Below are positions 2,640-11,735 of a DNA stretch of 17,984 nt, piece after piece. The notes beneath the pieces were generated by a model. The model ran no database searches. It saw only the letters and a list, made by a program, of their open reading frames with translations, and was not told the origin of the DNA. Numbering within the stretch: position 1 is the first letter of the stretch; the number at the start of each line of letters is the position of its first letter. The translations under genes were made by a program, and so were the position numbers. The stretch is from Thermoplasmatales archaeon SW_10_69_26 (GTDB taxonomy: Archaea; Thermoplasmatota; SW-10-69-26), in NCBI GenBank assembly GCA_003009755.1, contig PXUB01000013.1, forward strand, positions 1-17,984, written 5' to 3'.

Positions 2640-4838
2640 TCAGGCGATCAGCTCCTCGATGGTGTCCGCCAGGCGAGCCGGATCGAACTCCTTCTTGGGC
2701 ATGTAGGCGTCGGCTCCCGCCTCCAGGGCCTGGCGAGCCGGACCGCTCCGCTCGGAGGTGGTCACGAGCACGATCGGGACGTCCATGGCGGAGGCGCGGA
2801 TCCGCTCGGTGAGCTCGATGCCGTCCACCTCAGGCATCAGGACGTCGGTCACGACGGCGTCGACGTCCTCGTCCCGCAGACGCGCCCACCCCTCCTCGCC
2901 GTCCGGGGCTTCCAGCACGCTGAAGCCTGCGGTCTCGAGACCGCGTCGGATCTGTCGGCGGGTCACGTCGGTGTCCTCGACGAGCAACAGTCGCGGCTCG
3001 GCGCTGGGCTGGGGCTCGGCCGAGGGGAGCTCGAGCGGGCCCGCCTCGCGGATCGCGTCCGCCATCTCGCGCGGGTCCAAGATGACGCACACGGCCCCGT
3101 CGGAGAGGACCGTGGCTCCCGCCACCATGCGGACCGAACCGAGGATCGCGCCCAGCGGTTCGACGACGATCTCGGTCTCGCCCACCAGGTCGTCCACGAG
3201 CAACCCGACGCGTTCACCGCGGTCGAGCAGGACCACGCAGGGGCTCTCGCCCGACGCGAAGGGAGCCCGGGCTGGCGAGTCGACCTCCAGGGCCTCGGCG
3301 ATGTCCGCGACCGGCACCGGCTGCCCGTCCATCTCGACCGTCGTCACCTCGCCGTGATGGTCGACGTCCTCCAGGGCGACGTTCAACACGCGCAACAACG
3401 CGTCGGTCGGCACCGCGAACCTGTGCTCGCCGAGGCAGACGAGCATGACCCGCGCCGTCGACAGCGCCACGGGGACCTCGATCCGCACCAGGGTGCCCTC
3501 GTTCAGCGTGGACGAGACGTCCACCGTCCCCCGCAGCTCGTCCACGCCGCGAGCCACCGTCCCCAATCCGATGCCGCGTCCGGACACCTCGCCGGGGGCC
3601 TCCCGCGTGGTGAACCCGGCGTCGAACACGAGATCGATCACCGCCTCGTCGTCGAGCCGGTCGACCTCCGGGATCGCGCCCCGGCGGCGAGCCACCTCCC
3701 GCACCTCGTCGGGATCGATCCCTCGTCCGTCGTCCTCCACCTCGACGACGAGGCTGTGCGCCGTCCGGCGGGCCGCCAGCCGGACCCGAGCGACCGGGTC
3801 CTTGCCTTGCTCGCGTCGTTCCTCTGGGGGTTCGATGCCGTGGTCGACGGCGTTGCGGACCAGATGCATGATCGGGTCTTTGAGCTCCTCGAGCACGCGT
3901 TTGTCGGCTCGAACCCGATCGCCCTCGATCTCGAGCTCCACCTGCTTGCCCTGGTCGCGAGCGAGGTCGCGGACCGCCCGGCTGAACAGGTCGAAGATCT
4001 CCGCCATCGGGAGCAGCCGGCTCTCCTGGATGCCTTCCGAGAGCGCCTCAGCCAGCGACGCCAACCGTTCGGTGTCGTTCTCGGCCCGGTCGGCCATCTG
4101 GTCGAGTCGCTCGGCCAGGTCCTTGGTCGTCCGCCGCAGCTTGCGTTCGACGTCGGGCTCGGTCTCGCCCACGACCTCCTCGCGGATCGTCTGGGCGATC
4201 TCGGCCACCAGCTGTTGCCCCCTCGCCAGCTCTCGGCGACCCTCGTCCAACCGCTGGACCGTGGCCGTGAGCTCGCTCGCTCGACGCATCAGTCGGTCGA
4301 GCTGGCCAGGGTCCACCCGGATCGTCTCGATCCGGTGTGCGCGGGCCCGGCCCAGCGGGTCACGGGTGCCCTCCCCCGGCTCGTCCCCGCGCTCGTCCTG
4401 CCCCTCGGGCTGCCCGCCCGCGCCCTCGTCGACGGAGGGCTCACCAGCCTCCCCGGCGGCCTCGAGCTCGGCGACGAGGTCCTCCACGGGGACGTCCTCG
4501 GCGCCGGGTTGACCCTGGGTGGCCGCGTCGACCAGCGCCCGCAGCCCGTCGAGCGCGTCCACCAGCACGGCGACCTCCTCGGCCTGGAGCCCGCCCTCAT
4601 GGGGCCCCCGTTGGAGGACGCCCTCGCTCACGTGGGCGAGGGTCTCGATCCCCTCGAACCCCATGATCCGCGCGGCGCCTTTCAGGTTGTGCGTCTGGCG
4701 GGCGGCCGCCGCCAGGGCCTCCTCGTCGTCCGGTGCCTGGTCGAGCTGCATCAGCGCCTGCTCGAGCTCGGCCAGGTGCTCGCGGCTCTCGGTGCGGAAG
4801 AGGTCGAGCATCTCGTCGTCGGTGTCGTCGCTTGCCAT
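2640..4838 (-). CDS. cheA: hybrid chemotaxis histidine kinase CheA-REC
   Basis: Cytoplasmic kinase that passes receptor signals to a receiver domain. The 732 residues hold an HPt/P1 domain with HNLKG (phospho-His H50), an acidic Gly/Glu-rich linker (about 110-160) in place of a clear P2, and a P3 dimerisation helix from about 167. P4 follows, with N-box HLVRNAVDHG (325-334), DDGRGID (369-375) and SGRGIGLG (419-426). Next come a P5 CheW-like domain (about 460-595) and a C-terminal CheY-like receiver (about 615-732) with E621/D622, phospho-acceptor D665, T693 and K715. ATG at 4838 has GGTGAGGAGG just upstream and starts 8 bases after the preceding gene's stop. All catalytic boxes look intact. 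Fused receivers are known from FrzE/ChpA-like kinases, so this may steer something other than an archaellum. Confidence 0.94.
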   Translation of the reverse strand: MASDDTDDEMLDLFRTESREHLAELEQALMQLDQAPDDEEALAAAARQTHNLKGAARIMGFEGIETLAHVSEGVLQRGPHEGGLQAEEVAVLVDALDGLRALVDAATQGQPGAEDVPVEDLVAELEAAGEAGEPSVDEGAGGQPEGQDERGDEPGEGTRDPLGRARAHRIETIRVDPGQLDRLMRRASELTATVQRLDEGRRELARGQQLVAEIAQTIREEVVGETEPDVERKLRRTTKDLAERLDQMADRAENDTERLASLAEALSEGIQESRLLPMAEIFDLFSRAVRDLARDQGKQVELEIEGDRVRADKRVLEELKDPIMHLVRNAVDHGIEPPEERREQGKDPVARVRLAARRTAHSLVVEVEDDGRGIDPDEVREVARRRGAIPEVDRLDDEAVIDLVFDAGFTTREAPGEVSGRGIGLGTVARGVDELRGTVDVSSTLNEGTLVRIEVPVALSTARVMLVCLGEHRFAVPTDALLRVLNVALEDVDHHGEVTTVEMDGQPVPVADIAEALEVDSPARAPFASGESPCVVLLDRGERVGLLVDDLVGETEIVVEPLGAILGSVRMVAGATVLSDGAVCVILDPREMADAIREAGPLELPSAEPQPSAEPRLLLVEDTDVTRRQIRRGLETAGFSVLEAPDGEEGWARLRDEDVDAVVTDVLMPEVDGIELTERIRASAMDVPIVLVTTSERSGPARQALEAGADAYMPKKEFDPARLADTIEELIA

Positions 4839-4846
4839 CGTCCTCC

Positions 4847-6328
4847 TCACCTCATCGCATCCAAGCTGTCCGCGACCGCCTGCAGCTCGTCGACGAGCTG
4901 TTGGGCCCGCTCGTGGCGGTCGGCGGCCACGGTCACGCGCTCGCGGGTGCCCTCGATGTCGTCCTCGACGGCGTCCAACGCCTGAGCCTGATCGGCGGCG
5001 GCTTCCCGGACGGTGGCCGTCTGCTGTTGGGAATCCGCCAACCGATCGACGATCTGCTCCAGCCAGTCGTCGACGTCGTCGGCGCTCGTGCGGGTCTCCT
5101 CGATCGCTTTCCGCGTCCGCTCGATCACGACGGCCGCGGTCTCCGAGGACTCGTGGGCTTCGTCGGCGATCGCCTCCAGGGCCTGGGCTTCCGTCTTGGC
5201 TTGCTCGGCCAGGTCGCGGATCTCGGTGAGCTCGCCCGTGTCGGCGCCGGACCGGGAGGCGGCCACCGAGGCGTTGAGGGCGAGCACGTCGATCCGGTCC
5301 GCGGTGTCCGCCAACGTGTCCGCGGACCGCTCCAGGTGGTCGACCTCCTCGCTGACGTCGAGGATCTGCTCGGTGAACTCGCCCACGCCGTCCTCGACGT
5401 TCCCCAACCGTTCTCGGGTGCGGTCCACCCGGCGGCGGCCGTCCTCGGCCCAGCTTTCGACGGTGGTGGCCACCTGGCCTAAGGCGTCGACCTTCGCGTG
5501 GACGTCCCGGGCTTGGGCTTGCAACTGCGCCAGGTGGTCCTCGATCGCTAGGGTGGTCTCCTGCTCGGCGTTCACCCGCCCCCTTGCGTCCTCGAGGACC
5601 GTCTCGAGATCCGCCAACCGTTCCTCGAGGGTCCCCGCATCGCGCTCCAGGTCGCGGTCGATCGTGTTCACCGTCCGATACCCGACCACCGCGGACGTCA
5701 GCGCGGCCGCCAGCGACCCCCACAGGATCGCCTGATCCAGGTCGCTGTGCTGCTCGTGGATGGCCTCCCGCTGGTCGTTGAGGATCTGGCGTTCGCGATC
5801 GACCAACCGTCCCAGGGCGGCTTCGGTCCTCGTCCGCGCCTGGCTGGCCTGCGAGCCCGTCAGCCGGGCCTGGGCTGCGGTCTCGTTGCCGGCCTCCATG
5901 TCGTCTTGGGCTCGCCGCACGAGCTCGATGTAGGCGGTCGCGTTCTCCTGCATCTCGACGAACGTCGACTGCCGTTCGGGATCGTCGAAGGGTTGGTCGA
6001 CCTCGTCGACCTGCATCTGGAAGGTCGTGATCTGGGACTCCAACCGGCTCCGGTTCTGCGTCTCGCCCGTCATGACGTACGTGTGGCTGGCCTCCACGAC
6101 CCCCAAGAACGCCCGTTTGAGCTCGATCATCCCGGTCAAGCTGCGACGCTGCTCCTCCACGCGGTCCTCGGCCTCCCCGATCTGGTCCGTCTGCGCGTTC
6201 ATCAGGATCGCGCCGGCGAGGAGGAAGACGATCGGCAACCCGACCGCCACGGCCATCTGCCGGTCGAACGACCACCCTTCGAGCCAACCGCTCCCGTCGC
6301 GACCGCTGGCGCGATCGTCACTGGCCAC
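4847..6328 (-). CDS. CHASE3-type methyl-accepting chemotaxis-like transducer
   Basis: Predicted membrane receptor, 493 aa. TM1 is about residues 25-44. An extracytoplasmic helical segment of about 155 residues contains EASHTYVMTGE, reminiscent of CHASE3 (..RGYLLTGD..). TM2 is about 200-216, followed by a long acidic coiled coil. A degenerate MCP hairpin tip occurs at 346-361 (IDVLALNASVAASRSG, against the canonical LLALNAAIEAARAGE). No clear HAMP domain is visible. GTG at 6328 is chosen because it begins right after the CheW stop (6333) and the frame upstream of it is out-of-phase CheW sequence. It lies directly between cheW and cheA. The altered tip could weaken or re-specialise kinase coupling. 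Receptor function is inferred from topology, tip and operon. Confidence 0.85.
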   Translation of the reverse strand: MASDDRASGRDGSGWLEGWSFDRQMAVAVGLPIVFLLAGAILMNAQTDQIGEAEDRVEEQRRSLTGMIELKRAFLGVVEASHTYVMTGETQNRSRLESQITTFQMQVDEVDQPFDDPERQSTFVEMQENATAYIELVRRAQDDMEAGNETAAQARLTGSQASQARTRTEAALGRLVDRERQILNDQREAIHEQHSDLDQAILWGSLAAALTSAVVGYRTVNTIDRDLERDAGTLEERLADLETVLEDARGRVNAEQETTLAIEDHLAQLQAQARDVHAKVDALGQVATTVESWAEDGRRRVDRTRERLGNVEDGVGEFTEQILDVSEEVDHLERSADTLADTADRIDVLALNASVAASRSGADTGELTEIRDLAEQAKTEAQALEAIADEAHESSETAAVVIERTRKAIEETRTSADDVDDWLEQIVDRLADSQQQTATVREAAADQAQALDAVEDDIEGTRERVTVAADRHERAQQLVDELQAVADSLDAMR

Positions 6329-6332
6329 GGTG

Positions 6333-7289
6333 TCAGGCCCCCCGGATCCGCACCATGGTTCTCGCGGCCAACACCTGGAGAGGGTCGACGAGCGGCACCG
6401 CCTGGCCGTCGCGATCGAGCTGCCCCAACACCCCGGGCTGGTCCGGTGAGCCATCGATGCTCCCCTCGTCGAGGGGGACCGTCTGCCGGACCTCGTCGAC
6501 GGCCACCGCGGCGGGCTCCGAGGGGGGGTCGACCAAGGCCGCCAGAGCCACGTCGCGTCGGTCGACGGGGGAGAACCCCAACAGCGGGGCCAGGTCCACG
6601 ACGCCCACGATCTCCCCCCGGTGGTTGGCCAGGCCGAGCACGTGGTCGGGGGTCGTCGGGACCGGCGTCAACCGACCCAACCGGACGAACTCCTGCACGG
6701 GATCGACCAAGAGCGCGACCGTGTTGCCCGCCAGGCTGGCCAGCACCGCCAGCCGCTCCGGCTCGACCGGCGGGGCCATCGGGGCCACGGTCGGGTCCCG
6801 GCGGCGACCCAGCTCGGCCAGCTCCGCCTCGTCGAACCCGCTGAACAGGTCCTCGACGGAGACGGTCGGCTCGACGCTGTCGGCCCGGGCGGCCAACGCC
6901 TCCAGCTCGAGGACGTCGGCCGAGCGCTCCCCGAGGCGGATCGCGCCTCGGATCGGAGCCTCGTGCGAGGCCTCGATCGCCGTGTCCTCCGGGGCCGACA
7001 CGATGGTGTGAACCTCGGTGGCCACGAGGGCGAAGCGCCGGTCGCCGGCCTCCACGTCGACGAGGCGATGGTCGAGCGTGTAGGCCTCGGGTCGTCGGCC
7101 GAAGCACAGATCGACGTCGAGCACGGGGACCACCTCCTCGCCCACGTGCGCGTCCCCGATCCAGCCGCCGTGGCCGTTACCCGCTCCCGAAAACACCACC
7201 AGCCCCAGAACCTGACGGACGTGTCGTGCCGGCACCGCGTAGCGCCCCTCGCTCGTGCCGAACACGAGCAACGGTCCGAGGTCGTTCAC
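6333..7289 (-). CDS. cheW: tandem CheW-domain coupling protein
   Basis: Scaffold linking chemoreceptors to CheA. The 318-aa product contains two CheW-like domains, about residues 4-135 (LLVFGTSEGRYAVPARHVRQVLG) and about 178-312 (VLGLANHRGEIVGVVDLAPLLG, the more canonical one), joined by an acidic linker. Ordinary CheW proteins are about half this size. GTG at 7289 is preferred because GGGAGG lies 8 bases upstream. An alternative start at 7328 would add 13 residues and has no good ribosome-binding site. It is the first gene of the operon, and the next start is only 4 bases past its stop. No convincing TATA box was found upstream. Confidence 0.88.
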   Translation of the reverse strand: MNDLGPLLVFGTSEGRYAVPARHVRQVLGLVVFSGAGNGHGGWIGDAHVGEEVVPVLDVDLCFGRRPEAYTLDHRLVDVEAGDRRFALVATEVHTIVSAPEDTAIEASHEAPIRGAIRLGERSADVLELEALAARADSVEPTVSVEDLFSGFDEAELAELGRRRDPTVAPMAPPVEPERLAVLASLAGNTVALLVDPVQEFVRLGRLTPVPTTPDHVLGLANHRGEIVGVVDLAPLLGFSPVDRRDVALAALVDPPSEPAAVAVDEVRQTVPLDEGSIDGSPDQPGVLGQLDRDGQAVPLVDPLQVLAARTMVRIRGA

Positions 7290-7706
7290 CCCCCGTCCCT
7301 CCCGCGGCGTGAGGCCGTCCCAGGCCATCCGTCCCGGCGGTCCAGCAGCCTGTGGTCTCCCACCCCGAACGCCTGCGCAGAGCCCATCGGTACCGCCACA
7401 AGGCTACGAGCCGCCGTGCAGCTGAAAAGCCTGGAGGGACGAAGTTGGTGGAGTCGACCAGCCTCCAGAGGCCAGAGGGGTCCACGGGGGACGATCGGAC
7501 GGCAGCCGAGACCTCGCAGGGGTGGATGTCGCCAAATCGGAGGTCCCGGATCGGAGATCCGGTCTCTCGCGGGCTCCCTCTCTGCGATGACCGAGCGGAG
7601 CCAGACAGAGCATCGATCTCGCGCGGTACGCGCCGGGCTAGCGACGCGGTGGTCGCGACTCGTGCTCTCGCTGGGTCCTTCTCTGCGATCAGCGCGCGGA
7701 GGCTTT

Positions 7707-7750
7707 CGAGCGTCGAGCTCGTGTGGTATACGCCGAGCTAACGACGCTCG
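7707..7750 (+). repeat. bulged hairpin B
   Basis: The outer stem is cgagcgtcg (7707-7715) with cgacgctcg (7742-7750). The inner stem is agctcg (7716-7721) with cgagct (7734-7739). A 12-nt loop tops it, and AA is unpaired on the 3' side (7740-7741). It differs from the hairpin at 7791-7840 by paired, compensating changes in the outer stem. Confidence 0.75.
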
Positions 7751-7790
7751 CGATTCAACCGAACCGGGCGGTGGTTGTCGGTTCGGGTTC

Positions 7791-7840
7791 TCGCGAACGT
7801 CGAGCTCGCGTGGTGTTCGCCGAGCTAGCGACGTTCGCGA
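7791..7840 (+). repeat. bulged hairpin C
   Basis: The outer stem is 12 bp, tcgcgaacgtcg (7791-7802) with cgacgttcgcga (7829-7840). The inner stem agctcg/cgagct matches hairpin B. There is a 12-nt loop, and AG is unpaired on the 3' side (7827-7828). A weaker relative (A) with the same layout lies at 7611-7648. Confidence 0.78.
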
Positions 7841-7926
7841 TCCGGACGAGGCGGCGATGCGTTAGACGAGTCTCGTCCTCTCGCTGGATCGGCTTGACCC
7901 AGCTAGCGCGCCGATCGGGGGGGTTT

Positions 7927-7972
7927 TCGACCATCGGCCCCGCGAAGTCTACGTCGGGGCAGCGATGGTCGA
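7927..7972 (+). repeat. bulged hairpin D
   Basis: The outer stem is tcgaccatcg (7927-7936) with cgatggtcga (7963-7972). The inner stem is gccccg/cggggc, with a 12-nt loop and AG unpaired at 7961-7962. The stem sequences are unrelated to B and C, but the geometry is the same. A run of seven G and four T immediately precedes it. Confidence 0.78.
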
Positions 7973-8036
7973 GATGCGCACGGCTCGGTCGATGCAGTCG
8001 ACGAGAGCCGTGCTCTCGCTGGGTCCTTCTCTGCAA

Positions 8037-8699
8037 TCAGCGCGCGGACCCAGCGACCCGCTCGACCTCGTTCTTCTTGTTGACCGCGTAGCTGTCCTGG
8101 GAGTCGTTGGCTGCGTCGAGCAGCTCCTGAGCCAGGCAGAGGTGCACCGGCGTCTTGTTCTTGTAGCTGGTCTGCATGACGCCCTTCGTCAGGTTGCGCA
8201 GCGCCCAGTCGACGCGGCGGGAGGGAGCGGTGTCGACGGCCTTGGGCACGCTGATGCCGCCGTAGCGCAGACGGGTGACCTCCTCGCGCGGCGCCGCGTT
8301 CTGCAGCGCGTCGACGAGGATCTGCAGCGGGTTCGTGTCGGTCTCCTCCGCGATGTGGGCAAAGGCGTCCTCGATGACGCCGATCGCCTTCGTCTTCTTG
8401 CCCGTGTACTCCTCGGTGCGCATCAGCTGGTTGGCGAACCGCTCGACGATGTTGACCTCGGACTTTCCGAACCACTCGTTCGCGTGGCGGGCGCCCGTGT
8501 GGACGCTGAACTGGCCGCTGAGGTTGACGTAGCGGGCCAGCCCGCGATCCTCGATCACGACGTCGCTGGGGTCCCAGCGGTCGAAGAGGTAGTCACCGAT
8601 GGCCGATCCCTCGGTGTCGGGACCCATCGGGACGACGGGGTCGGGTTCTTCGTGGGCGAGTTCCTCGGTTTCCTCGGTCTCGGCTTCTTCCTCGGCCAC
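8037..8699 (-). CDS. rps7: 30S ribosomal protein S7 (archaeal uS7)
   Basis: Head protein of the 30S subunit that binds the 3' domain of 16S rRNA. The 220-aa product ends in the archaeal pattern VNKKNEVERVAGSAR. It also contains VNIVERFANQLMR, NPLQILVDALQNAAPREEVTRL and RRVDWALRNL, all typical of uS7. The N-terminus carries a very acidic extension (MAEEEAETEETEELAHEEPD) before the conserved core. GTG at 8699 is chosen because GGTGATC, close to a perfect anti-16S match, lies just upstream and the rps12 stop is only 4 bases before it. It is co-transcribed with rps12. Its last codons lie inside a 40-nt sequence that is repeated downstream (7661-7700). Confidence 0.96.
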   Translation of the reverse strand: MAEEEAETEETEELAHEEPDPVVPMGPDTEGSAIGDYLFDRWDPSDVVIEDRGLARYVNLSGQFSVHTGARHANEWFGKSEVNIVERFANQLMRTEEYTGKKTKAIGVIEDAFAHIAEETDTNPLQILVDALQNAAPREEVTRLRYGGISVPKAVDTAPSRRVDWALRNLTKGVMQTSYKNKTPVHLCLAQELLDAANDSQDSYAVNKKNEVERVAGSAR

Positions 8700-8703
8700 G
8701 CGA

Positions 8704-9132
8704 TCACCGCATCGGTTTCTCCTTCTTCCCGAGCACGAGCTCCTCGAGGGAGACACCGTTGACCTTGACGACCTTGAACCGCACGCCCGGGATGTCCCCG
8801 TACGAGCGACCCATGGCGCCGCCGATGCCCTCGATGAGGACCTCGTCGTGCTCGTCGATGAAGTTGATGGCGCCGTCACCCACGCAGAAGGCGGTGACTT
8901 GACGCCCGTTCTTGATGAGTTGGACCTTCACGCACTTCCGGATGGCGGAGTTCGGCTGCTTGGCCTCGATCCCGACCTTCTCGATCACGATACCCCGGCC
9001 TTGGGGCGCGCCACCGAGCGGGTCAGCCTTGTCGCGGAGGTTCTCCGCGCGGCGTTTGTAGTGTCGGTCGGACCAGCGGAACTTCTTCCGGTCCTTCTTC
9101 AGCTTGCGTGCAGCGTTCAATCCGTTCGCCAT
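8704..9132 (-). CDS. rps12: 30S ribosomal protein S12 (archaeal uS12)
   Basis: Decoding-centre protein of the small subunit, 142 aa, the usual archaeal length. The conserved core is plain: [32 protein letters not shown] and [21 protein letters not shown] at 9132 starts the expected [20 protein letters not shown]; upstream codons of the open frame run through the promoter and are discarded. GAGGGTGA lies a few bases upstream as ribosome-binding site, and a TATA box lies 74 bases upstream. It is first in the rps12-rps7 unit. nusA, which usually precedes it in archaea, is absent, and a hypothetical gene lies there instead. Confidence 0.97.
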
Positions 9133-9201
9133 CGGATGGTCACCCTCGCCCCGGGTGGACAGACGTCCCTCGGGGCCATCGTGGAACCAGGCAAAGAAGG
9201 T

Positions 9202-9213
9202 CCTGTATAAAGG
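9202..9213 (-). promoter_or_regulatory. TATA box of rps12-rps7
   Basis: The minus strand reads CCTTTATACAGG, with TTTATA at 9206-9211, about 74 bases before the rps12 ATG. The predicted transcript begins near 9182 with a leader of about 50 nt, similar to EF-2. Confidence 0.7.
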
Positions 9214-9256
9214 TTTGCGGGTGGGTTCCTGGCGGGCTGTCTCGTTAAGCAGGGGC

Positions 9257-9371
9257 CGCGAAGGACACGAAGGATCGCCAAGGCCACGAAGGGCCTGTGA
9301 CTCGCCGCCGGGCGGCTTTGTCACGGCAGCTGCTCGCCTTTGTGCCCTGGCGTCCCTTCGCGTACTTGGTG
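9257..9371. repeat. long imperfect inverted repeat with cacgaagg motifs
   Basis: The left arm (about 9257-9293) contains gaaggacacgaaggatcgcc and then aaggccacgaaggg. The right arm (about 9336-9371) is its imperfect reverse complement (cctttgtgccctggcg, then tcccttcgcgtacttgg). Between them is a nested hairpin: gtgac/gtcac (9297-9301, 9320-9324) enclosing gccgc/gcggc. It sits just upstream of the rps12 promoter and 49 bases past the end of the neighbouring hypothetical gene. It resembles dispersed cacgaag-type repeats I recall from bacterial genomes (memory only). Confidence 0.65.
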
Positions 9372-9419
9372 GTCCCCCCCCCGTTTCTTATCCTTACAGC
9401 GCGGGTGCGGGCCGACCTG

Positions 9420-10037
9420 TCACGGGTCCTCCCCGTGCTCGGCGATCAGCTGGCGCCCCCGGTCGGCGCACTCGGGGTACGCCTCGGCCAGCTCGGTGCC
9501 GAGGAACGCCTCGATCTCCTCCAACCGCTCTCGCGTGCGCTTGACCGCGTGGTCGTCGTCGGCCGGGGCGTTGCCCTGCACCTTCTCGTGGCCTTCCCGC
9601 CATCCCTCTGGGAAGTACCACACTTTGTACCAGCGGGCGCCGGCTCGCCACAACAGGTACCCCAGGGCCGTGCAGGCCGGGGGCACGTCCACGCTCAGGG
9701 CTCGCAGCGAGGCCGGATGCCCGTCGCAGGACACCATCACGTAGCTGCCGGGCAACAGCACGGTGCCCAGCTCCTCGAACAGCTCGATCTGCTCCTCCCA
9801 CGTGAGCGCCTCGCCGTCGGTCTCGCCCCCGACCCAGGGCCGGTAGCGGACCTCCAGCCACGGATGCCGCCAGGCGGTCCCGGGGTTCGTCTGCCCCTCG
9901 AAGAGCCGCCATCGGGCGCCCGCACGGTGGGCCTCCACTCGCACGGGATGGGGGCTGGACTCGTCGCTTTCCTCCTCCACGCTCAGATCCATGCCAGCGA
10001 CGGTCACGCCATCGAGCTTGTCGAGGGGAAGGCGCAC
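9420..10037 (-). CDS. conserved hypothetical protein, DUF1122-like
   Basis: 205 aa, function unknown. It is soluble, with no signal peptide or membrane segment. The central block is distinctive: LLPGSYVMVSCDG (about 110-125), then DVPPACTALGYLLWRAGARWYKVWYFPEGWREGHEKVQ in overlapping pieces, rich in Trp and Tyr. An acidic helical tail follows (RTRERLEEIEAFLG). The block reminds me of the archaeal DUF1122 family; a profile search would be needed. GTG at 10037 is chosen over the longer frame because GAGGG lies just upstream and the sequence before it is unpatterned. ATG at 9992 is possible and 15 codons shorter. It is divergent from the FBPase gene (182 bases apart) and lies upstream of rps12 on the same strand. 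Confidence 0.7.
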   Translation of the reverse strand: MRLPLDKLDGVTVAGMDLSVEEESDESSPHPVRVEAHRAGARWRLFEGQTNPGTAWRHPWLEVRYRPWVGGETDGEALTWEEQIELFEELGTVLLPGSYVMVSCDGHPASLRALSVDVPPACTALGYLLWRAGARWYKVWYFPEGWREGHEKVQGNAPADDDHAVKRTRERLEEIEAFLGTELAEAYPECADRGRQLIAEHGEDP

Positions 10038-10184
10038 GTCGCCCTCACGTGCGCGCGGCGAAAGAAGTTTGGCCCCCGCCCAAGCCGACGCTTGGCGAGC
10101 CCAACCGCGGCCGTGCCACGGAATCCCCCGCGGATGTGAGCAGGAGGTCACCCGGAGGAGGCAGGACGTGCGGTATCGGGCCCG

Positions 10185-10194
10185 TCTTTTATCT
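10185..10194 (+). promoter_or_regulatory. TATA box of the FBP aldolase/phosphatase gene
   Basis: TCTTTTATCT, with TTTTAT centred about 30 bases before the ATG at 10220. No Shine-Dalgarno sequence lies before that ATG (gtccggtcaacc), so the transcript is probably leaderless or nearly so. Confidence 0.65.
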
Positions 10195-10219
10195 ACCGCC
10201 GGTCTATGTCCGGTCAACC

Positions 10220-11389
10220 ATGACGGAGGTCACCGCCAGCATCATCAAGTGCGACGTCGGGGGATGGCCGGGCCATTCGACGACGCACCCGGACCTCGAG
10301 GAGACCGCCCGCGAGCAGTTGGCCGACGCCAGCAACGCCGGCGCGATCGAGGACTTCCACGTCACGCACGTGGGCGACGATCTGAACCTGATCATGCTCC
10401 ACCGCGAGGGTGCGGACGCCGAGGCCGTCCACAGCCTCGCCTACGACGTCTTCGAGGAGGCGACCGAGGTCGCCAAGGAACTGGGCCTGTACGGCGCCGG
10501 CCAGGACCTGCTCTCCGACGCGTTCAGCGGCAACGTCCGCGGCATGGGTCCCGGCGTCGCCGAGATGTCGTTCACCAAGCGCACCAGCGAGCCGATCCTC
10601 GCCTTCCTGATGGACAAGACGGAGCCGGGCGCGTTCAACCTGCCCATCTACAAGATGTTCGCCGACCCGTTCAGCACGGCCGGGCTCGTCATCGATCCCA
10701 ACCTCCACCAGGGCTTCCGCTTCGAGGTCTGGGACATCCAGGAGCACGAGCGCGTGTTCCTCGAGACGCCCGAGGACAGCTACAAGCTGCTGGCCCTCAT
10801 CGGCGCCAAGGAGCGCTTCGTGATCAAGCGCGTCTACCCCAAGGAGGCGCACAAGCTGCCCAGCGACGAACCGGTCGTCGCCGTCAGCACGGAGAAGCTC
10901 GTCGACGTCGCCGGCGAGTACGTCGGCAAGGACGATCCGGTCGCGCTCGTCCGCGCGCAATCGGGCCTGCCCGCCGTCGGCGAGGTCCTCGAACCGTTCA
11001 GCTTCCCCCACCTCGTCAGCGGGTGGATGCGCGGCTCGCACAACGGTCCGATCATGCCCGTCGGCGTCGAGGACGCGGACTGCACCCGCTTCGACGGTCC
11101 GCCCCGCGTCGTCGGCCTCGGCTTCAACGTCCACAACGAGCTCGAGCTCACCGGTCCCGTCGACCACTTCGACGACCCGGCCTTCGACAACGCTCGCGAG
11201 AAGGCCAACGAGGTGACCGACTACATGCGCCAGCACGGCCCCTTCGAGCCGCATCGGCTCCCGCTCGAGGAGATGGAGTACACGACGCTGCCCGGCATCC
11301 TCGAGTCCCTCGAGGGCCAGTGGCACTCCGTCGACGCGGAGGCCTCCGAGGTCGACGCCGAGACCGTCACCGTCGGCGAGGTCGAGTGA
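10220..11389 (+). CDS. fbp: bifunctional fructose-1,6-bisphosphate aldolase/phosphatase (type V)
   Basis: Gluconeogenic enzyme that condenses dihydroxyacetone phosphate and glyceraldehyde 3-phosphate to fructose 1,6-bisphosphate and then dephosphorylates it. The product is 389 aa, near the family length. Metal-ligand motifs are IIKCDVGGWPGH (D12, H19) and VGDD (D53, D54). The central signature is NVRGMGPGVAEMSF. EYVGKDDP carries Y234 and Schiff-base lysine K237 followed by D238 and D239, the spacing known from the Thermoproteus enzyme. So both activities look intact. ATG at 10220 fits the family start and the TATA spacing; the open frame upstream to 10049 is ignored. It is monocistronic, convergent with the RHH gene, and its stop codon lies in a 13-bp hairpin stem. 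Confidence 0.96.
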   Translation: MTEVTASIIKCDVGGWPGHSTTHPDLEETAREQLADASNAGAIEDFHVTHVGDDLNLIMLHREGADAEAVHSLAYDVFEEATEVAKELGLYGAGQDLLSDAFSGNVRGMGPGVAEMSFTKRTSEPILAFLMDKTEPGAFNLPIYKMFADPFSTAGLVIDPNLHQGFRFEVWDIQEHERVFLETPEDSYKLLALIGAKERFVIKRVYPKEAHKLPSDEPVVAVSTEKLVDVAGEYVGKDDPVALVRAQSGLPAVGEVLEPFSFPHLVSGWMRGSHNGPIMPVGVEDADCTRFDGPPRVVGLGFNVHNELELTGPVDHFDDPAFDNAREKANEVTDYMRQHGPFEPHRLPLEEMEYTTLPGILESLEGQWHSVDAEASEVDAETVTVGEVE

Positions 11390-11421
11390 CGAACGGCATC
11401 CAGAGCGCGTTCGTCACTCGA
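11382..11421 (+). terminator. hairpin over the fbp stop codon
   Basis: Perfect 13-bp inverted repeat tcgagtgacgaac (11382-11394) with gttcgtcactcga (11409-11421), loop 14 nt. The TGA stop (11387-11389) is in the left arm. No T-run follows, so it could be a terminator-like or mRNA-stabilising structure rather than a classical terminator. Confidence 0.5.
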
Positions 11422-11735
11422 GACCGCGGCCGGGCGCCTACGTGCGGCGAGCGGCCGTGCGAATCACGAGCATCCCTGGCCCGGTGAAGACCGCGGGCCG
11501 GATGCTCGTGGTCGAGGGATGCCCGAGGTCGAGTAACAGCCGACGACCCACGCATGGCTCGCACTCGTGAGACCGAGTCTCCTCAACCCAGCCCCGCCTC
11601 GGTCGGACCGCGAGGATCGCTCGTCCGGCGTCCACCGCTCGGCCTCGATGGTCGCGAGATCCCGAACCGACCGCGAGCCGCGTGTGGCGTGCCTGGGCCT
11701 TGGTCGGGTGTCCGCGGTCGGCCCAGGCTCGACGA
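11390..11735. other. intergenic region between fbp and the RHH gene
   Basis: 346 bases between convergent genes with no supportable reading frame. Besides the stop-codon hairpin and hairpin E, there is a 9-bp perfect repeat gcctgggcc/ggcccaggc near 11692-11729 and a 7-bp gaccgag/ctcggtc pair near 11572-11605. The motif gagaccg recurs here, as in the right-end hairpin cluster. Confidence 0.5.
11465..11510 (-). repeat. bulged hairpin E
   Basis: Read on the minus strand: outer stem cacgagcatcc/ggatgctcgtg (11 bp), inner stem ggcccg/cgggcc (6 bp), a 10-nt loop, and AG unpaired on the 3' side only (11476-11477). This is the geometry of hairpins B to D, 3.5 kb away and in the opposite orientation. 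Confidence 0.72.

Follow-up and report, generated by a model that had tools for sequence, protein, structure and literature searches.

Integrated elements of archaea target the 3' ends of tRNA genes, rarely the 5' region of tRNA-Ser genes, and the 3'-distal parts of protein genes; they leave direct repeats and may stack as arrays at one site (PMC6563490). Those known carry genes, and the cryptic ones span 2.6–98 kb (PMC6563490). Here, we analyze 17,984 nucleotides (nt) of Thermoplasmatales archaeon SW_10_69_26 (positions 1–17,984 of contig PXUB01000013.1, assembly GCA_003009755.1; hereafter the window), in which bulged hairpins, termed H1, follow the ends of the rpsG and fbp genes. These hairpins belong to a family of small DNA units, not described before, that lack genes, are built of three hairpins and carry their own copies of gene ends. 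The arrays follow the site rules of archaeal integrative elements, and we therefore propose small non-autonomous integrative units mobilized in trans. We give about an even chance to the reading that H1 is a module of very small, gene-free, non-autonomous integrative DNA units that occupy gene ends, both of tRNA genes and of conserved protein genes.

Throughout, H1 denotes the bulged hairpin first noted, hairpin A and hairpin B its companion families, and the prefixes L, G and C the stretches, genomes and contigs compared. The four bulged hairpins of a preliminary description of the window (H1 copies B, C and D on the plus strand and E on the minus strand) are present where it placed them, and a covariance model detects two degenerate copies besides:

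7704–7753, plus strand: H1 copy B, bulge-hairpin scan; covariance model 68.7 bits
7790–7841, plus strand: H1 copy C, bulge-hairpin scan; covariance model 72 bits
7925–7974, plus strand: H1 copy D, bulge-hairpin scan; covariance model 62.4 bits
11463–11512, minus strand: H1 copy E, bulge-hairpin scan; covariance model 63.7 bits
7610–7647, plus strand: degenerate H1 copy A, covariance model E 0.0015; no folding signal (as DNA, 7611–7648 folds no better than shuffles)
11608–11657, minus strand: degenerate H1 copy, covariance model E 8e-6

As described, copies B to E combine an outer stem of 9–12 base pairs (bp), an inner stem of 6 bp and a 2-nt bulge on the 3' side; the loop measures 12 nt in B, C and D and 10 nt in E. 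The window contains four hairpins with a 2-nt 3' bulge, compared with 0.1 on average in its shuffled versions (20 first-order Markov shuffles of the window, with the scan allowing any bulge of 0–4 nt), and the DNA folding z-scores relative to shuffles are −1.8 (B), −4.3 (C), −4.4 (D) and −5.0 (E). The outer stems of D and E had been considered unrelated to the others; all outer stems are in fact variants of nnGCGAGCATCG. The loops do share a loose core, which is described better by cRYGGTnnnnnC than by the RGTNYNC initially put forward.

We built an H1 covariance model (R1) from 10 founder copies and searched the whole genome, a 2.82-Mb assembly in 49 contigs from a GC-rich Thermoplasmata-type archaeon. 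The 49 matches correspond to 44 distinct places once strand duplicates are merged, and all 44 are intergenic. Among the founders, both-sided changes affect 11 of 18 pairs and 98.3% of positions are paired, compared with 83% after shuffling, a level equalled in none of 500 shuffles; the signal is lost when the pairing partners are shifted by 1–3 columns. The bulge is fixed in all 34 strong copies (AG in 19 and AA in 15), and 41 copies are flanked by TTC on the 3' side and mostly by TC on the 5' side. The stems of hairpin A covary as well, which bears out the earlier suggestion of selection on shape with compensating changes.

In a 400-kb sample, the density of perfect hairpins per kb is 0.70 for intergenic DNA, 0.61 for coding sequence and 0.32 for shuffles, showing no genome-wide excess; the arrays are therefore local. 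Contigs end in or near arrays at C3:77, C6:160 and C39:54601. The arrays probably break the assembly, so the H1 copy count is a lower bound. Among 40 relatives, the H1 model found no convincing copy; the single weak match (E 2e-4, in G009) was judged a chance hit because its stem is poorly paired. A degenerate H1 pattern had no match in the contigs of GTDB genomes, a set that may omit the present genome, or in viral contigs. With the methods used, the family appears confined to this genome, as it was absent from the same-family genome G001 (75% complete), from five same-class genomes and from the GTDB contig pattern scan.

H1 belongs to a larger unit in which three hairpins alternate, a fact missed when it was described as a single-hairpin family, real as that family is. 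In gene sense the order is fixed: the gene end, its stop codon and an inverted copy of the gene end are followed by GA, hairpin A, GAAT, and H1 or hairpin B, after which the next unit begins. A unit spans about 100–250 nt and is free of genes. Hairpin A nearly always comes after H1 on the H1 strand, starting exactly 3 nt past it in 25 of 37 copies (0.3 expected); its stem is variable, usually starting with GNACG, and TCTC comes after the hairpin. An 18-nt loop, tcnGCGGTnnCnGCGGTC, is conserved in one type of hairpin A; the model built for this type yields 28 matches in its own genome, some of them in arrays that lack H1, and no match in 20 relatives. Hairpin B is a further family, with a stem near TCGCCAGAGACCGC and loops of 15–35 nt, that alternates with hairpin A (L041, L054, L044, L155 and L158). 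The rpsG and fbp arrays of the window comprise, besides H1, the following features:

8016–8056, minus strand: rpsG gene-end hairpin, with coding arm TCGCTGGGTCC (8046–8056, complement), a loop holding the stop codon, and inverted copy GGACCCAGCGA (8016–8026, complement)
7978–8013, minus strand: hairpin A of unit 1, stem GCACGGCTC/GAGCCGTGC
7887–7916, no strand: short hairpin in the gene-end position of unit 2, GATCGGC/GCCGATC
7844–7878, minus strand: hairpin A of unit 2, stem GGACGAG/CTCGTCC
7759–7786, minus strand: hairpin A of unit 3, stem CCGAACCG/CGGTTCGG
7665–7699, minus strand: rpsG end segment repeated directly, comprising stop codon, loop, inverted arm and GAG; repeat family D7
7564–7602, minus strand: rpsG end segment again, more degenerate; repeat family D7, 64%
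7546–7562, no strand: GATC-triloop hairpin CCGGATC gga GATCCGG, a hairpin A type also found in other arrays
11382–11421, plus strand: fbp gene-end hairpin, arm TCGAGTGACGAACG with the stop codon TGA within it, and inverted copy CGTTCGTCACTCGA; absent after the fbp gene of the relative L100
11525–11536, plus strand: short direct copy of the fbp end, GAG GTC GAG TAA (GAG GTC GAG TGA in the gene)

The rpsG product ends in ERVAGSAR, and its gene-end hairpin is followed in the sense direction by GA and hairpin A; within repeat family D7, positions 7642–7700 and 7990–8048 are 86% identical. The fbp end, GEVE*, is common to L100, where no hairpin comes after the gene; the gene end therefore came first, and the downstream arm was copied from it. 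The nearest named relatives of fbp are from Thermoplasmata archaea (top isolate CSSed11_322R1, 81% identity).

Gene-end copies recur across the genome, for which gene calls were based on codon usage. In 9 of 22 genes with H1 downstream, rpsG and fbp being those in the window, the last part of the coding sequence and an inverted copy located just 3' of it form at least 11 bp; the same holds for none of 152 other genes, among which the best pairing score is 9. Such hairpins reach 15–18 bp at aspS, htpX, a ferredoxin gene and a sulfurtransferase gene. Direct copies of gene ends often lie past H1 or hairpin B and extend over 50 nt at tfb, 45 nt at a metB-like gene and 28 nt at a sulfurtransferase gene. 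The aspS and cox3 copies come from a peptide-level search anchored on stop codons, in which they score 62 and 60, respectively, against a maximum of 22 for control genes. The EASL* copy at rpsB (score 23) was not counted as evidence, nor was the EVE* copy at fbp, whose score of 22 is inside the control range and weak alone.

Both aspS copies encode FPRDRDRLRP*, with eight nucleotide changes and no amino-acid change, and the cox3 copies keep VYAIVYLQWI* with four nucleotide differences; the copies at tfb and one other gene likewise retain the peptide and stop codon with only synonymous differences. Seven copy pairs together contain 22 nucleotide and four amino-acid differences. For the latter the expectation is 15.3, and a number this low arose in none of 20,000 simulations; the bias of this pooled count is considered below. 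At aspS and cox3 the older gene-end copy still pairs with its own inverted arm, and at aspS each copy does so even though the arms differ at synonymous positions. We infer, as the simplest course of events, that the synonymous-only copies diverged at a time when each was still coding, for example in different lineages, and were joined later.

The same organization is seen at tRNA genes. The 3' ends of tRNA-Gly (ccc, gcc and tcc), tRNA-Pro (cgg), tRNA-Met and tRNA-Leu (caa) are copied in inverted orientation over 14–17 nt and directly over 10–39 nt, with the direct copy beginning within the inverted-copy stretch at all six; a search for long end copies at tRNA-Glu, tRNA-Ser (gga) and tRNA-Ser (cga) found none. 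Gene-end copies of 10–50 nt, candidates for direct repeats, occur at six tRNA genes, tfb, the metB-like gene and C17; their lengths vary, and none were found at several other sites. Misjoined strain variants could mimic duplicated gene ends, but would not produce junctions directly after H1 or hairpin B at many sites. In L077 (3700–4300; C1:123200–123800), an array without H1 adjoins tRNA-Ser (tga) at its 5' part; the initial 23 nt of this tRNA occur three times upstream with inverted copies interspersed.

The main rival explanation holds that these are palindromes like repetitive extragenic palindromes (REP) and bacterial interspersed mosaic elements (BIME), tolerated downstream of genes, and that the gene-end hairpins and copies arose by template switching during replication (snap-back copying and slippage) with no dedicated integration. 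An exact inverted copy of flanking sequence is what snap-back copying classically yields, the array at htpX consists of a 141-nt tandem duplication, and the repeats are all extragenic, 3' of genes and clustered, with several hairpin families alternating with short tags. This explanation nevertheless accounts neither for the synonymous-only direct copies, nor for the constant three-hairpin order with a gene-end copy just before GA and hairpin A, nor for the preference for tRNA and conserved gene ends; moreover, the genome has no match to a RAYT-type Y1 transposase. We regard it as rather doubtful.

The units adjoin the genes for tRNA-Gly (ccc, gcc and tcc), tRNA-Arg (gcg and ccg), tRNA-Pro (ggg and cgg), tRNA-Met, tRNA-Leu (caa) and, at its 5' part, tRNA-Ser (tga), as well as the conserved genes rpsG, fbp, aspS, tfb, cox3, spt5 and htpX. 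Empty sites exist in relatives, at fbp in L100 and at aspS in G001–G008. The orientation of the hairpins, noted earlier as not matching the flanking genes, is indeed antisense but not random: H1 is consistently opposite to the gene whose end it adjoins, so that its complement always lies downstream in gene sense. Between tandem genes, strong H1 copies are antisense to both, and two seemingly divergent intervals hold tRNA genes with the same orientation relation. Convergent intervals make up 16 of 24 with H1, compared with 16% of gaps of at least 150 nt in a 400-kb genome sample (p 5e-8).

An H1 array begins immediately past the stop codon of an IS1595-type transposase gene in L058 (2990–3922; C47), and two near-identical units of H1 and hairpin A follow a gene for a beta-CASP ribonuclease in L043 (4391–6307; C41); we take this ribonuclease to resemble the archaeal terminator factor aCPSF1.

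The composition of the stems bears on whether the hairpins act as RNA. Among 478 cells of interior H1 pairs, 465 are Watson-Crick, one is G-T, six are A-C (equivalent to G-U on the other strand) and six are other combinations. Structural RNAs are usually far richer in wobble pairs, and the scarcity of such pairs in H1 therefore suggests that pairing matters, or is renewed, at the level of DNA. An RNA-level role, in which the stop-codon hairpin and those after it serve as terminators, processing sites or 3' stabilizers selected at convergent genes, would fit the constant position downstream in sense, the strong bias toward convergent gene pairs and the compensatory pairing. It is opposed by the near absence of G-U pairs (1 of 478), by the inverted copies of tRNA 3' ends, which would compete with tRNA folding, by the array at the 5' part of a tRNA-Ser gene, and by the small number of genes that carry hairpins, the same genes in relatives being without them. 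In agreement with the earlier statement that no named family fits, the window has no gathering-level match to any curated RNA family in Rfam. A structured RNA was set aside as the favored reading because of the few G-U pairs, the tRNA-end copies and the absence in relatives, and we consider it unlikely. The preliminary description had offered both a structured RNA and a DNA element, leaning slightly to the latter; the DNA element is now favored because wobble pairs are nearly absent, gene ends including tRNA 3' ends have exact inverted copies, and gene ends are directly duplicated.

In the integrative reading that we prefer, a unit would bring a gene terminus including its stop codon, an inverted gene-end copy, GA, hairpin A, GAAT, and H1 or hairpin B, and the inverted copy would let the gene end fold into a hairpin. 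New units may enter at the gene-proximal side by recombination within the gene end, which would be restored on entry, with the earlier end staying downstream as a direct copy and units piling up in tandem. The units might move as folded single strands or circles, a tyrosine-type recombinase could act in trans, and the AA/AG bulge may mark the strand for recognition. As for integrative elements, the target lies in a tRNA gene or a conserved gene end and appears restored after insertion.

The search for a driving enzyme returned no match to RAYT (PF01797, Y1 transposase) in the genome, the same search being positive in 8 of 14 control genomes; no match to Cas1 (PF01867), for which 9 of 14 controls were positive; and no match to reverse transcriptase (PF00078). 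RAYT, casposase and reverse transcriptase were consequently rejected as drivers. The genome encodes three PF00589 tyrosine-recombinase candidates. In L061 (3859–4900; C2:33058–34100), a 10-nt direct copy of the tRNA end follows the tRNA-Gly (ccc) array, and beyond it lies a tyrosine recombinase gene whose coding sequence is divided between two frames. It seems that insertions of two kinds use this site, and the link of the recombinase to the units is circumstantial.

A structure-reading tyrosine recombinase also features in an integron-like alternative, in which the gene-end hairpin (T-T') and H1 are the folded single-strand sites at which cassettes are added to gene ends. The conservation of shape while sequence varies, the strand-specific 2-nt unpaired step and the enclosure of the stop codon by the first hairpin all suit this model, but no integron-type core sites are seen in the H1 consensus and no cassette genes lie between units, which makes it very improbable.

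Several observations weigh against our integrative reading. Known integrases use one or a few sites, whereas at least 25 different gene ends are used here; the copied segment varies in length, with no fixed target duplication; and, to our knowledge, a long exact inverted gene-end copy is part of no integrase site. The units are linked to no enzyme: just one array has a tyrosine recombinase gene next to it, and tRNA sites draw integrases in any case. The peptide search anchored on stop codons prefers coding-like copies and biases the pooled synonymous count, and some of the copies found by DNA matching (metB-like gene and htpX) carry amino-acid changes. Template switching at palindromes may account for the inverted copies. 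Finally, the assembly of 49 contigs has masked stretches or gaps in some arrays, and C3, C6 and C39 end in or near arrays.

If small integrative units are nonetheless involved, integrative elements can shrink to 100–250 nt without genes, and repeats resembling ordinary extragenic palindromes record integration at gene ends. An inverted copy of a host gene end within each unit, which co-evolves with the gene's synonymous changes, leaves an unusual trace through which the origin and movement of such palindromes become directly testable. The same reading suggests that, in this lineage, essential genes and tRNAs may have their 3' ends replaced repeatedly. A bolder version, which we hold only tentatively and think somewhat improbable, is a categorically new mobile element: gene-free three-hairpin units that would move between genomes as folded single strands under a structure-reading recombinase, target dozens of gene ends, build a hairpin with the target end and replace that end with a synonymously recoded one, so that the arrays form an ordered record of insertions.

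Other features of the window are an imperfect inverted repeat of a different type, between rpsL and the next gene (9241–9380, GAAGGACACGAAGGATCGCCAAGGCCACGAAGG and GGCGTCCCTTCGCG), and chemotaxis genes (a CheW-domain protein and CheA/receptor-like reading frames; 2640–7328) between rpsG and the EF-2 gene, which break the usual archaeal rpsL-rpsG-EF2 order.

Integron attC sites are imperfect hairpins read by structure, with unpaired bases on one strand, RYYYAAC/GTTRRRY cores and associated cassette genes. The units resemble them in their imperfect hairpins, one-strand unpaired bases and placement at a stop codon, but neither these cores nor cassette genes are seen here. Mitochondrial double-hairpin and GC-cluster elements, which are mobile G+C-rich palindromes, share covarying palindrome stems with the units; their host is unrelated, and we know of no gene-end copying or restoring by them. 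REP and BIME of the GTAG and CGTC superfamilies, including archaeal REPs, are likewise short extragenic palindromes, often downstream of genes, and are also alike in their dimers, clusters, short unpaired tags and compensatory stem changes (PMC3733652; PMC12306157). The units differ from them in having no GTAG or CGTC tag beside the stem and no RAYT match in the genome, and in their stems of 9–12 plus 6 bp, fixed 2-nt bulge, two or three families in constant order and gene-end copies. Archaeal integrated elements (those of tyrosine integrases and casposons, for example in Thaumarchaeota) agree with the units in their targets, restored gene and one-site arrays, and their direct repeats may correspond to the gene-end copies, whereas the units described here measure 100–250 nt, consist of hairpins only, carry an inverted gene-end copy and occupy dozens of sites in a single genome.

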